The translations under genes were made by a program, and so were the position numbers. A stretch of DNA of 64,000 bases from Planctomycetaceae bacterium (GTDB lineage: Bacteria > Planctomycetota > Planctomycetia > Pirellulales > Pirellulaceae): assembly GCA_002862205.1 (NCBI GenBank), contig PKCN01000199.1, positions 21,658 to 85,657 on the forward strand, written 5' to 3'. Below are positions 14,553 to 20,245 of the stretch, one piece after another (the stretch's first letter is position 1; the number at the start of each line of letters is the position of its first letter). Below the pieces are notes generated by a model. That model did no database searches. It saw nothing but the letters and a program-made list of their open reading frames with translations, and was not told the DNA's origin.

Positions 14553-14615
14553 CTTTTGAGTGACTTGGGGTCATCCTTGTCGAAGGACTTTGCTAAAGTG
14601 ACCGTGTGACGTTCA

Positions 14616-14651
14616 TTCACCTCCTGCCAATTGTTTACCTCCTGCCAATTT
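14616..14651. repeat. 18-bp tandem duplication just before ftr
   Basis: TTCACCTCCTGCCAATTG is followed by TTTACCTCCTGCCAATTT, ending 18 bases before the ftr start codon. Each unit contains CCTCC, an anti-Shine-Dalgarno-like string; whether it affects translation is unknown. Confidence 0.93.
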
Positions 14652-14668
14652 ACCGATCAGAGCATTTC

Positions 14669-15580
14669 ATGACGGATCAAGTTACGATTGATGATACGTT
14701 TGCTGAAGCATTTCCGATGCGCGGCACGCGTTTGATCATCACTGCGGCGGATGCCGAGTTGGCGGAGATTGCTGCGGGAGAATTTTGCGGCAATGCATCC
14801 AGCGTGATTGGATGTGACGCAGAGGCGGGGGTTGAGTGTGTGGTGCCCAGCGATAAAACCATCGATGGTCGGCCCGGAGTTGCGGTGCTGGCTTTTGCTT
14901 TTGATCGGGAATCATTGGAAAAAGCAGTCACTGCCCGCGTCGGTCAAAATGTGCTGACCTGTCCCACCACTGCTTGTTACGCTGGGTTGCAAAGTGATTT
15001 GAAGAAAGATCGAATCAAGGTCGGATCGCAGTTGCGTTTCTTTGGCGACGGTTATCAGTTCTCAAAGAAACTGGAGAATCGGCGATTCTGGCGGGTCCCC
15101 GTGATGGACGGTGAATTTCTGTGTGAAGATGTGGTTGGCACGGTCAAAGGCATTGGAGGAGGCAACTTGCTCGTGTGCGGGCAGTCACAGCGAGAGACAT
15201 TGGCAGCCGTCCGGGCAGCCGTCGCTGCCATCCAGAGGCTGCCTGACGTGATCATGCCTTTTCCTTCTGGGATTGTTCGCAGCGGTTCCAAAGTCGGGTC
15301 CAAGTACAAACCGCTCAAAGCAAGTACGAATGACAAATGGTGCCCATCATTGCGAGGCCAAACCGAAACAGCACTGCGGGATGGAGAGCAAGCCGTCTAT
15401 GAAATTGTGATCGATGGCTTGTCCGAGCAGGCGGTTACTGACGCGATGGCTGCCGGGCTTCAAGCTGCCGCTAAAGCACCGGGAGTGATGCGGATCTCCG
15501 CCGGAAATTATGGCGGCAAACTCGGACCACATCATTTTCATTTGCATCGGTTGGAAACGGGATCCCTTGCGTCCCGTTGA
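14669..15580 (+). CDS. fhcD: Formylmethanofuran:tetrahydromethanopterin formyltransferase
   Basis: The 303-residue enzyme moves the formyl group between (methano)furan and tetrahydromethanopterin in C1 metabolism. It resembles archaeal Ftr and bacterial FhcD along its whole length: MRGTRLIITA at the N-terminus, CPTTACYAG, LRFFGDGYQFSK, GIGGGNLLVCGQS, FPSGIVRSGSKVGSKYK and SAGNYGGKLGPHHFHL at the C-terminus. The ATG at 14669 opens the homologous sequence. It leads the fhc cluster; in Methylorubrum the homologue is part of the Fhc complex. The stop codon lies within a 17-bp direct duplication (15572-15605). Confidence 0.96.
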   Translation: MTDQVTIDDTFAEAFPMRGTRLIITAADAELAEIAAGEFCGNASSVIGCDAEAGVECVVPSDKTIDGRPGVAVLAFAFDRESLEKAVTARVGQNVLTCPTTACYAGLQSDLKKDRIKVGSQLRFFGDGYQFSKKLENRRFWRVPVMDGEFLCEDVVGTVKGIGGGNLLVCGQSQRETLAAVRAAVAAIQRLPDVIMPFPSGIVRSGSKVGSKYKPLKASTNDKWCPSLRGQTETALRDGEQAVYEIVIDGLSEQAVTDAMAAGLQAAAKAPGVMRISAGNYGGKLGPHHFHLHRLETGSLASR

Positions 15581-15673: not shown

Positions 15674-15880
15674 AGGGGCAGGGAGGGTTCCTGGCAGCGA
15701 CCAGCGTGCGGCATACGTGCAAAAAATCGCGTCTTTTCTACAAGACGAGTAGGTGCGGTCAGATCATACTGGGATACAACAGGGACGGGTTAGATTGAAT
15801 GGGGCACGATTAGCATTGCGGCAAAATCAGCCCCTTCTTTAAACTGACTTGCCCCGACCATCACCGTGAACGAGCCTGAA

Positions 15881-16246
15881 ATGTCTGCAAAACGCTACCT
15901 GTTGAACCCCATGCGTACGGCCAAACAGGGCGTCCAGGTGAATGTGGGCAAAGAAGGTGATGAGTACATTGAAATCACGACCACTTTGTCGATTCATCCA
16001 GATGATATGGCCGAAATTGGTGTATCTGATGGAGATCGGGTTCTGGTCAAAACCGAGTTTGGTGAGGCTGAATTCGGGTGTCAGACCGCAAAGGTTCCTG
16101 AGGGCATGATTTTTGTTCCCTACGGTCCGCCCACTTGCCAGCTGATGGATGGCGGGACGGATGGCACGGGGATGCCAACGAGCAAGGGTTGGGAAGTCGA
16201 AGTGACGCCGGTTGGCGGATCAAAATTTGAAGAGAAAGCAGAGTGA
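15881..16246 (+). CDS. FwdD-like molybdopterin-dinucleotide-binding subunit of formylmethanofuran dehydrogenase
   Basis: The 121-residue protein looks like the molydopterin dinucleotide-binding domain of archaeal FwdD/FmdD: EYIEITTTLSIHPDDMAEIG, SDGDRVLVKTEFGEAEF and a C-terminal PYGPPTCQLMDGGTDGTGMP. In the archaeal complex FwdD and FwdB together bind the tungsto- or molybdo-pterin. Its place two genes before fhcB supports that partnership. The redox-inactive Fhc complex of Methylorubrum is described with four subunits (FhcABCD) and no FwdD, so this gene argues for a cofactor-containing enzyme. A GTG at 15866 is an alternative start. Confidence 0.85.
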   Translation: MSAKRYLLNPMRTAKQGVQVNVGKEGDEYIEITTTLSIHPDDMAEIGVSDGDRVLVKTEFGEAEFGCQTAKVPEGMIFVPYGPPTCQLMDGGTDGTGMPTSKGWEVEVTPVGGSKFEEKAE

Positions 16247-16256
16247 GGCTGGAAAC

Positions 16257-16409
16257 ATGAGTAACAATAGCAATGTCGGCGGTGAGGATTCACCCCATTT
16301 TCAAGTACCTCAAAGTGGGGATGAAGTGGTCGCTTGGCAGGAGGTTGAGGAGGGTCGTTTCATGCCGCAACGTATTCGAGGCAGCTGTAAGGGACGTGCG
16401 CTTGGCTGA
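16257..16409 (+). CDS. Small protein of unknown function in the fhc cluster
   Basis: The 50-residue ORF starts at an ATG preceded by GGCTGGAA and lies 10 bp after the fwdD-like gene, so co-translation is likely. It is hydrophilic with a basic C-terminus (GRFMPQRIRGSCKGRALG). I do not recognise the family. The stop is a TGA. The same frame continues for 35 more codons of strikingly polar sequence (KSSSSDDNQSSVNDD ... EPSQDETQS) before the next TGA, and a 6-bp hairpin lies 16 nt downstream of the first TGA. A C-terminal extension by UGA recoding is possible but speculative. Confidence 0.6.
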   Translation: MSNNSNVGGEDSPHFQVPQSGDEVVAWQEVEEGRFMPQRIRGSCKGRALG

Positions 16410-16571
16410 ACGTTTACCGTTAAATCGTCCAGTTCGGACGACAATCAATCAAGTGTCAACGATGACACGCATGGCAGCAGCCCCAGTGAGCCCTCCCAAG
16501 ATGAAACTCAATCCTGACACTGTGGTGTCGGTGGTCTGTCTGAAACCTTCATTCACTTTGCGGATAATCTG

Positions 16572-17906
16572 ATGGATTTGAAAGTCATTGATAATGCAAC
16601 GTGTACTTTCTGTGGATGCGTGTGTGATGACATTCAGTTACACGCAGATGAAAACCGTATTCACCAGGCCAAGAAAGCGTGCGTGCTTGGCAAGGCATGG
16701 TTCTTGAACCATACGGCTGAGCGAAAGTATCCCGATGCTTTGATCGACGGCAAGGAAGCAACGCTTGATGAGGCGATCGAGGCGGCCGCTGAGCACCTGT
16801 ATCAAGCTGATATGCCGTTGGTGTATGGCATGAGCAACACAACCTGCGAAGCCCAACGCGAGTGCGTGGAAATGGCCGATCACTTGGGGGCTTTGCTGGA
16901 TAGCCATACTTCCTTGTGACATGGTCCAACTGAAATCGCCGCCCAGTTGGGTGGCAAGGTGACATGCACTCTGGGAGAAGTCAAAAACCGCGCTGACTTC
17001 ATTGTGTATTGGGGTGGGAATCCGGCGGAATGTCACCCACGACATTTCACCAAGTACGCCCTGATGCCGAAGAGCCAGTTTCTGCCTCGTGGTCGTAAAG
17101 ATCGTACGATGGTGCTGGTTGATATTCGCGAAACCAAAAGTGTGAAAGCATCCGATGTCTTTTTGCAGGTTCGCCCAGGGAAAGATTTTGAATTGATCAC
17201 CGTGTTGAGGGCGATGATCAAAGATCAGCCGATCAGTGAAGCACAGATTGCCGAGACAGGGCTGAGCGTGGAGCAGTTGCAGGATTTTGTGGCTCGAATG
17301 AAAGCCGCCAGATTTGGTGTCTTTTTCTTTGGCATGGGATTGTCGATGACACGCGGCAAGCACATGAACTCCGCTGCTTTATTGACACTTGCTGCCGAAA
17401 TGAACGCGTTCACCAAGTTTGTCGCCATGCCTATGCGCGGGCATGGCAATGTCACAGGGGCTGACGTGATCATGCGTTGGCAAACGGGATACCCGTTTGG
17501 AATCTCGTTCAACCGAGGCTACCCCCGCTACAACCCGGGTGAGTTCTCGACCGTCGATGTGCTGGTTCGAGGAGATACCGACTGTGCGTTCATCATTGGC
17601 GCTGATCCGGGGGCGACGATGCCAAAGCCGGCCATTGAGCATTTGAAGCGTGTGCCCACCATCGTGCTCGATCCGCATGTGACACACACCAGCAAGATGG
17701 CACGAGTGCACATCACGACCGCTCCAGCCGGTATCTCGGCACCGGGAACAGCGTACCGAATGGACGAGATACCGCTGCCATTGCGTCCCGCACTTGAGTC
17801 GCCCTATCCTAGTGATGAAGAAGTGGTGAGAAGGATCAAAGAGACCATTCTGAAAAAACCTGACTGGATGGGTGAGCGACCTCAAATGCTCACAACACAG
17901 GTTTGA
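16572..17906 (+). CDS. fhcB: Formylmethanofuran dehydrogenase subunit B, predicted selenoprotein (in-frame TGA)
   Basis: Bases 16572-16916 and 16920-17906 are in the same frame, separated only by a TGA at codon 116. Together they give 444 residues, the normal FwdB/FhcB length. The N-terminus has the 4Fe-4S motif CTFCGCVCDD plus a later Cys (KKACVLG). The TGA lies in HTSL-x-HGPTEIA, where Methanothermobacter FwdB has its tungsten ligand Cys118 followed by the catalytic His, and where some methanogens use selenocysteine. Arg289 (MPMRGHGNVTG) fits the catalytic Arg288. A hairpin begins 4 nt after the TGA. I predict selenocysteine at residue 116. Alternatives are a nonsense mutation (two fragments) or a sequencing error. 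Confidence 0.88.
16917..16952 (+). promoter_or_regulatory. Candidate bacterial SECIS element with UGA(Sec) codon
   Basis: The UGA at 16917-16919 is followed after CAUG by the stem CCAACUG (16926-16932) / CAGUUGG (16944-16950), seven perfect pairs, extended by two G-U pairs (16925/16951 and 16924/16952). The apical loop is 11 nt (16933-16943) and contains a G at +19 from the UGA, within the distance reported for SelB-binding bacterial SECIS loops. The bulged U of the E. coli fdhF element is not obvious. Confidence 0.65.
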
Positions 17907-18029
17907 TCACGGTGTGATTTGTAACTTCATTTGGAAGTGAAGATCCAATTTGTGACTCATCATGTAATGCGTCCCCGTGGATGTGTTCCACGTGGTTGGC
18001 AGTCGGAGAACTTGAAAGGTCCAGATCGA

Positions 18030-19370
18030 ATGCTCCGAATCACTGGTGGAACTGTTTACGATCCAGCCAATGGAATCAACGGCGAAGTACGCGACCTTGA
18101 TGTGGAAGATGGCAAGTTTGTGTCGTCTGTCACGGGCGGGCGTACGATCGACGCTACAGGTTTGGTGATCTTTCCCGAAGGTGTCGATGTCCACACTCAC
18201 GTTGCGGGAGGGTCGATCAATTTCGCCCGCGCGATGACTCCCGAGGATCATCGTCGCACGCAGGCTTTCATTCGCAGTCAGACCCGTCGCAGTGGGCTGG
18301 GGGGAATGGCACCGACGACCTTTGCAACCGGTTACCTGTATGCAGGAATGGGGTTCACTACCGTCAACGAAGCCGCCGTGCCAGTGTTGTCGGCCCCGCA
18401 TACCCATGAAGAAATAGCTGATATTCCGATCGTTGACAAAAGCTGTTTGGTGCTGATGGCCAACAACGAGATCATGCTTGATCTGCTGGAAGCTGGAGAA
18501 TATGAGCGGGCCAAACGTATGGTTGCCTGGCACGTCTGGGCCGCCAAGGCGTATGGAGTCAAGGCAGTCAACCCCGGAGGTGTTGCGGCCTGGAAATGGG
18601 GTAAAGATGCAAAGCAGCGGTCAGAACCTGTGGAGGGTTACAAAAATACAACTCCAGGATCCATTGCGGCCAGTCTGGCCAAGATCATCGATGAATTGGG
18701 CTTACCGCATCCCATTCATTTGCATTGCAATAACTTGGGAGCACCAGGCAATGTCAGCACAACGCTCGAGACGATGAAGCATCTTGAGGGGCATCGAGCC
18801 CATTTGGCTCATCTTCAGTATCACGCTTGCGGAGGTGACGACTGGCATGCGATGAAATTCGAGGCGGCGCAGCTTGCTGAGTATTTCAATGCTCATCCCA
18901 ACATGACCACCGATGCCGGCGCCGTTCTTTTTGGTGACACCGTCACGATCACCGCCGATGGACCCTGGCAGCATTTGCTCTACAAATTGACGGGTCGCAA
19001 ATGGGGGAATCTTGACGTTGAGAATGAGACTGGTTGTGGAATCGTTCCGTCTTCGTACCGCCCCAGCAATCTGGTCAATGCGGTGCAATGGGCAACCGGG
19101 CTCGAACTCCTGTTGCTGATTGATGATGCGTGGCGGGTTTTTCTGTCAACCGATCATCCCAATGGAGCCTGTTTTTGGCGGTATCCGGAAATCATTCAAT
19201 TGCTGATGTGTGCTGACTATCGCAAGGAATGCATGGCCCAACTGCCACCTGAAATCAAAAATCGGATTACCTTGCCGGAAATCGATCGCGAATGCATGTC
19301 GTTTGAAAACTGTCCGGTCGAAATGGAACGAATTGAACGTGCCGAAATTCAGCAATGCATTGCTGCCTAG
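18030..19370 (+). CDS. fhcA: Formylmethanofuran dehydrogenase subunit A (amidohydrolase), C-terminally short
   Basis: The 446-residue protein is of the FwdA/FhcA family, the binuclear-metal amidohydrolase that interconverts formate and formyl-furan. Expected metal-site residues are present: His55 and His57 (DVHTHVAGG), Lys178 (GVKAVNPGG), His230/232 (PIHLHCNNLG), a His in LQYHACGG and Asp375 (STDHPNG). The usual length is about 550. After TLPEIDRE the typical C-terminal segment is missing, replaced by 29 unrelated residues and TAG; no other frame restores it. The start at 18030 (GAAAGG ten bases upstream) matches the family N-terminus. Confidence 0.93.
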   Translation: MLRITGGTVYDPANGINGEVRDLDVEDGKFVSSVTGGRTIDATGLVIFPEGVDVHTHVAGGSINFARAMTPEDHRRTQAFIRSQTRRSGLGGMAPTTFATGYLYAGMGFTTVNEAAVPVLSAPHTHEEIADIPIVDKSCLVLMANNEIMLDLLEAGEYERAKRMVAWHVWAAKAYGVKAVNPGGVAAWKWGKDAKQRSEPVEGYKNTTPGSIAASLAKIIDELGLPHPIHLHCNNLGAPGNVSTTLETMKHLEGHRAHLAHLQYHACGGDDWHAMKFEAAQLAEYFNAHPNMTTDAGAVLFGDTVTITADGPWQHLLYKLTGRKWGNLDVENETGCGIVPSSYRPSNLVNAVQWATGLELLLLIDDAWRVFLSTDHPNGACFWRYPEIIQLLMCADYRKECMAQLPPEIKNRITLPEIDRECMSFENCPVEMERIERAEIQQCIAA

Positions 19371-19426: not shown

Positions 19427-20245
19427 ATGAATAAAATTAAACTCACTCTCAGGGAAAAGCCGGTCGTTGTTTTGGAGGCTGAAGTGATCTCACCTGATCT
19501 CTTTGTCGAACAATCCAATGAAGAGATCCGGGCCAGTGTGGTGTATCACGGAAAACGGCAAAAAAGAATCGATGACTTTTTTGATGTTGAGGGTGAACGT
19601 AGTGACTGCATTGAGATTCATGGGGATCTGAATCGTGTGCGGCATGTGGGACGGGCGATGACCCGTGGAGAAGTGACCATCCACGGTGATGTCGGAATGC
19701 ACCTTGGGGCTCTCATGAAGGGAGGCACCATTGAAGTTCACGGCAACGCAGGCGACTGGGTTGGCGGCGAAATGAAAAAAGGCAAGATTCATATCCACGG
19801 GGATGCCGGGCAACAGGTGGGTGCCGCCTACCGTGGTAGCATTCTCGGGATGCAGGGCGGAACCATTGTGGTTGATGGAAATGCTGGCATCGAAGTTGGG
19901 ATGAGGATGCGGCGAGGCATCATTGTGATTGGTGGAACCGCCCGAGATTTTGTAGGATTGCAAATGAAAGGTGGTACCATCCTCCTTTGCGGTGGTGCTG
20001 AAATTCGCACAGGAGCCTGGATGCAACGTGGCACTATCATCTCGTTGAAAGAACTTGCGTTGATGCCAACGTTTGCGGAAAGTGGTGCGTACAATCCGAC
20101 ATTCCTGAATGTCTACTCCCAACATCTGCAGGCACTTGGGGTGCAGTTGCCATACGCTGAGGCGGACGGCCGGTATCGGCGTTATAGCGGTGATCGGGGA
20201 GTTCCAGGAAAAGGCGAAATCCTGATCTGGGAACCCGCTGTCTGA
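19427..20245 (+). CDS. fhcC: Formylmethanofuran dehydrogenase subunit C
   Basis: The 272-residue protein is made largely of repeated beta-helix turns with the motif GxxGxxxG (GDVGMHLGALMKGG, GNAGDWVGGEMKKG, GDAGQQVGAAYRG, GNAGIEVGMRMRRG, GTARDFVGLQMKGG), the signature of FwdC/FhcC. These are related to the glutamate synthase alpha C-terminal domain and form the scaffold of the complex. It starts 56 bp after fhcA and ends the cluster, before an 18-bp tandem array. Confidence 0.96.
   Translation: MNKIKLTLREKPVVVLEAEVISPDLFVEQSNEEIRASVVYHGKRQKRIDDFFDVEGERSDCIEIHGDLNRVRHVGRAMTRGEVTIHGDVGMHLGALMKGGTIEVHGNAGDWVGGEMKKGKIHIHGDAGQQVGAAYRGSILGMQGGTIVVDGNAGIEVGMRMRRGIIVIGGTARDFVGLQMKGGTILLCGGAEIRTGAWMQRGTIISLKELALMPTFAESGAYNPTFLNVYSQHLQALGVQLPYAEADGRYRRYSGDRGVPGKGEILIWEPAV

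Follow-up and report, generated by a model that had tools for sequence, protein, structure and literature searches.

Closest described systems

The Fhc complex of aerobic methylotrophs consists of the subunits FhcA, FhcB, FhcC, and FhcD. In the passages of PMC10100899 that deal with these proteins, the methylotroph FhcB is described as a scaffold without cofactor, bacterial FwdB is traced to a horizontal gain from archaea, and annotation programs are said to truncate selenocysteine (Sec) genes of the FwdB kind nearly always. The closest system with Sec is that of Rhodopirellula 'P2' from Porphyra, for which the text of a 2016 report describes a Sec-containing FmdB, an operon with the order fmdD-fmdB-fmdA-fmdC, and the presence of the sel genes (PMC4807772). 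The model of the bacterial SECIS element, as given in the corresponding part of PMC13188914, is a stem of 4–16 bp with a loop of 3–9 nt and a G in the first two places, positioned 16–37 nt past the UGA.

Here we describe a locus in a stretch of 64,000 nucleotides from a Planctomycetaceae bacterium (contig PKCN01000199.1, positions 21,658 to 85,657 of the forward strand), which is hereafter called the window. It resembles the 'P2' system in the predicted Sec of a planctomycete formylmethanofuran dehydrogenase (FMDH) subunit B, in the subunit operon, and in the sel genes; unlike the window, the text of PMC4807772, where it treats the operon, mentions no second recoded gene. With the archaeal Sec-type FwdB, the window protein shares the UHxP motif, the Mo/W ligand position, and the subunit family (FwdB entries of PMC13188914; PDB 9sfi_Q). 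Archaeal SECIS elements are mostly located in the 3'-UTR according to the section on them in PMC13188914, whereas the fhcB hairpin of the window lies inside the coding region, 25 nt past the UGA. A further difference from the archaeal enzyme is that FwdF and FwdG were not recognized in the flanks; no electron subunit of this type was seen by eye in the 45 largest clusters of open reading frames (ORFs) of at least 70 residues within flanks of up to 6 kb. Compared with the methylotroph Fhc, whose FhcB is cofactor-less in the account of PMC10100899, the window has a Sec ligand column and FwdD, and the loss of the Mo/W ligand that marks a cofactor-less FhcB is not seen, the column being TGA. Comparison of sequences makes it quite probable that this cluster encodes a Sec-dependent FMDH and that UGA is decoded as Sec twice, in fhcB and in a small gene, each time through a separate downstream hairpin.

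Organization of the gene cluster

All features described below are on the forward strand, and the genes follow the order ftr, fwdD, small gene, fhcB, fhcA, and fhcC. The first gene, ftr (fhcD, formylmethanofuran:tetrahydromethanopterin formyltransferase; 14606–15580), matches TIGR03119 with 414 bits and NF002554 with 430 bits. It is followed by a gene for a fwdD-like small subunit with a molybdopterin dinucleotide-binding domain (15866–16246), which was recognized through PF01568 and the FwdD structures in the PDB (2ki8 and 5t5i_D); its score against the FwdD model NF042908 is 77.8 bits, under the curated cut-off of 175. Downstream of the small gene (16257–16517) and fhcB (FMDH subunit B; 16572–17906) are fhcA, which encodes subunit A, a Zn amidohydrolase (17931–19370; TIGR03121, 553 bits; PDB FwdA 8rja_A), and fhcC, which encodes subunit C (19427–20245; TIGR03122, 258 bits). 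Subunits A, C, and D of FMDH thus all accompany subunit B. The presence of fwdD is not peculiar to the window: of the 80 named loci (the best 80 of 411), 73 have this gene upstream of a TGA-type fhcB.

The listed start of fhcA (TTG, 17931–18032) adds approximately 34 residues that fall outside the models and structures of FMDH subunit A. The real start is probably downstream of 17931, because homology to TIGR03121 and 8rja_A begins at residue 35 of the listed ORF. In three loci of close relatives (L079, L081, and L084, with the same fhcB sequence as in genomes G187, G175, and G092, respectively), the operon fhcA is lost or decayed and fhcB and fhcC are kept. Each of these three genomes has an fhcA match elsewhere with 73–75% identity, interrupted by stops in G187 and G175, and the window genome (G000) has a second fhcA copy on contig C99 in addition to the operon copy. 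As candidates for further selenoproteins of the FhcB superfamily, the two other PF00384 genes in the genome were inspected, and neither has an internal stop.

In-frame TGA of fhcB

The preliminary description of this DNA had presented fhcB as a gene split by a single in-frame TGA at the metal-ligand position, and this is what the translation of 16572–17909 gives: one frame of 444 codons, whose sole break is the TGA at codon 116 (16917–16919), within HTSL-*-HGPTEIA. When the TGA is treated as U, the protein matches TIGR03129 (FMDH subunit B) over residues 8–425 with 501 bits (cut-off, 327.8). The top matches in the PDB are 9sfi_Q, which has an X at the Sec column, and 5t5i_B.

The comparison of this column among relatives, which had been proposed as a check, was carried out on 139 loci. 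The codon is TGA in 117 of them, which represent 92 distinct sequences and were reduced to these before further counting; the others have Cys (TGC or TGT; 10 loci), Gly (5), Ser (1), a gap (5), or no coverage (1). The proportion of TGA is not a frequency, because resemblance to the TGA query was the criterion for including a locus. In the surveys of whole genomes, a full-length TGA-type fhcB with at least 72% identity was found in 28 of 199 genomes of the family and in 10 of 392 genomes of the phylum. For fhcB without a stop, the fetched loci, including the 10 Cys loci, are those in which we read the codon at this column. Among the family matches listed, G082 and G124 were considered as further genomes of the TGA type and rejected, their TGA being an ordinary stop. 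The identical TGA is also present in the complete genome CP036526 (K23_9), which carries both recoded genes.

His directly follows the Sec position in all 92 distinct TGA loci, and the Arg motif PMRGHGN is present in 91 of them. Among the 21 non-TGA loci, PMRGHGN is kept in seven, all of which have Cys at the column. The four-Cys motif for a [4Fe-4S] cluster is found in 92/92 TGA loci and also in 21/21 non-TGA loci, ligand-less ones included, and for this reason it cannot distinguish a redox enzyme from a scaffold. We assume that the Cys motif, the His next to the ligand, and the Arg motif have the roles of their counterparts in the archaeal enzyme.

A hairpin with the sequence GCCGCCC-AGUU-GGGYGGC follows the TGA. 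In the window it is located at 16938–16955, with a 7 bp stem (GCCGCCC/GGGUGGC) and the loop AGUU, 25 nt past the TGA, and these values are within the bacterial SECIS model. All 92 distinct loci have AGTT as the loop, and the seven stem pairs are complete in 83. Leu+10, which is encoded in the loop, is TTG in 92/92 sequences, the tightest of 252 degenerate columns, and TTG accounts for 23% of the Leu codons in these genes. In the 21 non-TGA loci, no more than two pairs in a row extend from the loop, with L060 pairing at 6 of 7 places in register. The folding energy of the region has a z value of −1.22 (22 of 200 shuffles as good), and the variation of the stem is one-sided with zero compensatory changes; the argument for the element consequently rests on the synonymous constraint and not on energy.

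Selenocysteine decoding genes

The genome was searched for selA, selB, selC, and selD, as the preliminary description had suggested, and all four were found, each above its cut-off. The tRNA-Sec scores 70.3 bits against a cut-off of 47 and has the anticodon tca, and selA scores 502 bits. The selB, selA, and selD genes are located together on contig C86. Within the family, selA is above the cut-off in 27 of the 28 genomes with TGA-type fhcB, compared with 75 of the 171 others. Within the genus of the window, it exceeds the cut-off in all eight genomes with TGA-type fhcB and in none of the five without it, where the matches are weak at most. Genome G065, which is 86% complete, has both TGA genes yet no selA hit.

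The claim that UGA116 is read as Sec is supported by the sel genes, by the conserved TGA column, and by a hairpin that agrees with the SECIS model, and this reading is almost certainly correct. None of the refuting conditions of the preliminary description that we examined held. The reading is known in kind, because PMC4807772 (2016) already reports a Sec-containing FmdB in a planctomycete.

A probable second recoded gene

A small gene, which the preliminary description did not contain, lies between fwdD and fhcB, just upstream of the latter. It extends from an ATG at 16257 to a stop at 16515–16517 and has an in-frame TGA at 16407–16409, so that its product would have 86 residues including a predicted Sec51. 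We call it GRALG-U-TF after the residues around this position. A 99-residue ORF in another frame (16273–16572) was rejected as a shadow of the small gene, because it is matched in 9 of the 80 named loci whereas the in-frame motif is found in 85 of the 92 distinct loci.

In these 85 distinct Sec-type fhcB loci, a copy of the motif GR-x-LG is present and the codon that follows it is TGA in 85/85. A profile scan added six more copies with TGA: three divergent ones (L048, L132, and L148), a fragment at an edge (L128), and two on other contigs of the genomes of L036 and L038. In L056, 399 bases precede the Sec codon, and its genome (G345) has a copy of the small gene on another contig. At the predicted Sec column, all 91 copies read have TGA, with no TAA and no TAG, and no Cys form was found among these 91 DNA copies. 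The stop that comes next in frame varies among the copies (TGA in 38, TAA in 32, and TAG in 15), and therefore the invariant TGA does not reflect a habit of stop codon usage.

The sequence that flanks the TGA on either side is conserved in the form expected for coding sequence. In an alignment of 39 rows (taken from 54 copies of the window and the named loci), 13 columns show no variation, among them the Sec column and the Phe at +2, which is conserved in 85/85 copies with exchange between TTC and TTT. The core of the protein is basic, with the consensus GR[FY]MPRR[VI]RGS..GRALGU. The variability at codon positions 1, 2, and 3 is 0.32, 0.39, and 1.56 bits in the upstream core and 0.82, 0.60, and 1.30 bits in codons +1 to +4; the first two positions are under constraint and the third is freer both before and after the TGA. 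Coding conservation that flanks an invariant UGA is expected of a selenoprotein gene, and the small gene very probably encodes one.

Searches for relatives of the small protein gave no convincing match. The window copy has no match in Pfam (PF25471 was hit with an E value of 0.056 in 1 of 39 members), its best match in NCBIfam is TIGR01623 (E value, 0.097; 12.6 bits compared with a cut-off of 42), and a profile search against the PDB sequences returned two matches with an E value of 1.6. The AlphaFold2 model has a pLDDT of 63.9 and a pTM of 0.26, with low confidence outside a short hairpin. A very small Sec protein that is tied to one large metalloenzyme, as we propose for the small gene, is known in the VhuU type. 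Set beside VhuU by description, the small protein has a single Sec, no conserved Cys partner, and a variable tail after it. VhuU-type small selenoprotein subunits are listed in Table 1 of PMC13188914 (2026), and none of the 119 families in that table fits the small protein. Literature searches, judged by title and abstract, and the consulted text of PMC4807772 gave no description of it. As far as these literature and database searches reach, we read GRALG-U-TF as a new, undescribed selenoprotein family.

Hairpin of the small gene

The TGA of the small gene is also followed by a SECIS-like hairpin (16425–16441), which has a 6 bp stem (UCGUCC/GGACGA) and the loop AGUUC, 21 nt past the TGA. The folding energy of a 54-base segment of the window (UCGUCC-AGUUC-GGACGA with its surroundings) is −10.0 kcal/mol with a z value of −0.94, and 34 of 200 shuffles were as good. 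When we scanned for the longest stem with a G early in the loop, a stem of at least 5 bp was found in 85/85 copies (best picks). The loop begins 18–22 nt past the UGA in 83 of them and at 14 and 26 nt in the other two, and the spacing and loop are as in the bacterial model.

The copies fall into two registers, which were chosen from the data and leave L033 in neither. In the first register (53 copies), 405 of 424 cells are paired with 33 both-side changes, and in the second register (31 copies), whose outermost pair forms in 15 of 31, 192 of 217 cells are paired with 10 both-side changes. In each case 0 of 1000 shuffles was as good, a control that has to be read with the caveat that kinship among the sequences can beat shuffles without any structure. 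When the partners were slid by one or two places, the number of paired cells dropped to at most 209 and 121, respectively.

Distribution of the two genes

The small gene occurs together with the Sec-type fhcB. In the survey of 199 family genomes, it was found in 28 of 28 genomes with TGA-type fhcB and in 0 of 171 others; the strong matches have E values of 1.1e-18 or better, each with the TGA, and 12 other genomes of the family have weak partial matches only (E values of 1.8e-5 to 0.0095). In the survey of 392 phylum genomes, it was found (E value of 1e-4 or better) in 10 of 10 genomes with TGA-type fhcB and in 0 of 382 others. Up to 30 first-look candidates per genome in the family and 15 in the phylum were scored. 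Because G000 and G040 are common to both surveys, the two genes occur together in 36 genomes, and no surveyed genome was found to carry one without the other. When the 21 FhcB loci that have Cys or have lost the ligand were scanned locally with a profile, mostly over flanks of approximately 1.5 kb, no small gene was detected; fwdD is visible in the flank of 5 of the 10 Cys loci.

In a tree of FhcB that took in 34 of the 92 Sec-type sequences, these and one other (L049, genome G053) form one branch with 100/100 support. The co-occurrence of the two genes could reflect shared descent more than function, because the Sec-type sequences form this single branch. The L049 branch is long, and its exact position inside the Sec clade is poorly supported. 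In this genome (L049/L218), the Sec codon is deleted with two neighbors and PMRGHGN is lost, and the [4Fe-4S] Cys motif and a His are kept. No fwdD was found within 1.6 kb upstream of its fhcB, and no small gene was found in the genome.

Five genomes of the same genus as the window (G142, G151, G159, G181, and G193) have neither a Sec-type fhcB nor the small gene, and selA does not exceed its cut-off in any of them. We considered whether these genomes without selA had kept a Cys form of fhcB; they have no close fhcB, only a distant fhcA with 39–41% identity. The genus would accordingly appear to have switched the trait as a whole. FdhD has no match in the eight genomes of the genus with the Sec type (G000 and seven mates), although these are predicted to have an Mo/W enzyme of the formate type, and has one match, in G193, among the five genomes of the non-Sec type. 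Two loci from metagenome-assembled genomes (MAGs) labeled Acidobacteria (L153 and L155) combine a Sec-type fhcB with an upstream fwdD and small gene, and fhcA and fhcC were seen in L155 only; they may represent transfer between phyla or a binning error.

Proposed redox site of FhcB

In the mechanism that we propose, a formyl group would be passed from tetrahydromethanopterin by Ftr to give formylmethanofuran, which FhcA would cut to formate, and FhcB would oxidize the formate to CO2, or the reactions would run in reverse. Sec116 of FhcB would bind Mo or W beside the catalytic His and would, together with FwdD, make up a complete redox site. The complex would then release electrons by oxidation of the formyl group to CO2 (or take the reverse direction), which goes beyond mere hydrolysis to formate. 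A working Mo/W redox site in FhcB is suggested because the His and the Arg motif are kept and FwdD is found in most of the named loci (73 of 80).

It is improbable that the cluster is instead a plain Fhc formyltransferase/hydrolase complex of the methylotroph kind, in which FhcB would be a scaffold and Sec a relic. In favor of this view, other planctomycete FhcB proteins have lost the ligand (Gly, Ser, or a gap), the methylotroph FhcB is without cofactor in the description given by PMC10100899, and the [4Fe-4S] Cys motif, which is also present in 11 loci with neither Sec nor Cys, proves no redox role. However, the Sec-type sequences retain the His and PMRGHGN, an FwdD accompanies them in most of the named loci, and a decoding system for Sec is costly to maintain. 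The only Sec-less member of the Sec clade, G053, also lacks PMRGHGN and a nearby fwdD, and this protein appears to have turned from a redox enzyme into a scaffold.

Role of the small gene

The small protein likely works with FhcB. Its selenol could act on the metal site of FhcB, the protein being a small dedicated subunit or a factor that finishes the Se-metal center. The most likely role is that of a subunit of the Sec enzyme or of a factor in its maturation. Action on the metal site itself is a tentative proposal to which we give somewhat less than even weight, made because we found the gene only alongside the Sec enzyme and not in the genome whose fhcB lost the Sec codon. In enzymes of this class, sulfur transfer is usually the task of FdhD. 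The more specific idea that GRALG-U-TF is an obligately selenium-using family that builds or completes the Se-metal center of the Sec-type FMDH and replaces FdhD, which has no match in the eight Sec-type genomes of the genus, is speculative and rather unlikely.

The UGA of the small gene might alternatively act as a selenium-sensing leader that sets the translation of fhcB, its peptide having no role otherwise. The usual position of the gene just upstream of fhcB and the hairpin straight after the UGA would fit such a device, but in the core of the protein the first two codon positions are conserved. Moreover, two genomes (G147 and G171) have the small gene beside ftr and fwdD (identified by eye from the ORF lists of L202 and L203) on a contig separate from that of fhcB, and its TGA is retained; this arrangement in trans argues against a leader, for which we see only a slim chance.

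Even less probable is an ordinary stop, with a 50-residue protein that ends at GRALG and a hairpin that serves as an mRNA processing or terminator element. Databases present the protein in this form: 126 of 132 inspected copies (drawn from the best 120 of 2461 proteins and a further set of 29) end at LG before the TGA, as unnamed or hypothetical proteins. One of the 132 is unrelated after its start, and the remaining five entries, read as protein, have Trp (3), Cys (1), or Gly (1) at the Sec column. These five (P0150, P0151, P0152, P0169, and P0204) have the residues that alternative genetic codes give for TGA. Against a stop at this place are the exclusive use of TGA (91/91) while the next stop is mixed, the Phe at +2 in every one of 85 copies despite TTC/TTT exchange, a hairpin whose spacing and loop resemble those of the bacterial SECIS as modeled in PMC13188914, and the failure to find the gene in surveyed genomes without a TGA-type fhcB. 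A pseudogene or sequencing error in fhcB, for which nothing speaks except the in-frame TGA as such, has a negligible chance, given that 92 distinct sequences, the complete CP036526 among them, share the identical TGA and that the remainder of the frame is intact.

Implications

The new part of this locus, and the one that would surprise a specialist, is the small companion selenoprotein and not the Sec of fhcB. If our reading of the small gene is right, a selenoprotein family of planctomycetes and two Acidobacteria-labeled MAGs has escaped notice, because gene callers end the gene at the UGA and leave a stub of approximately 50 residues. The protein would also be a rare handle on what Sec does for, or needs from, a Mo/W site of the formate type, because no Cys form occurs in the DNA that was read and the protein is found only with the Sec enzyme. 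A single genus in which some members have the pair and others lack it would then constitute a natural experiment.
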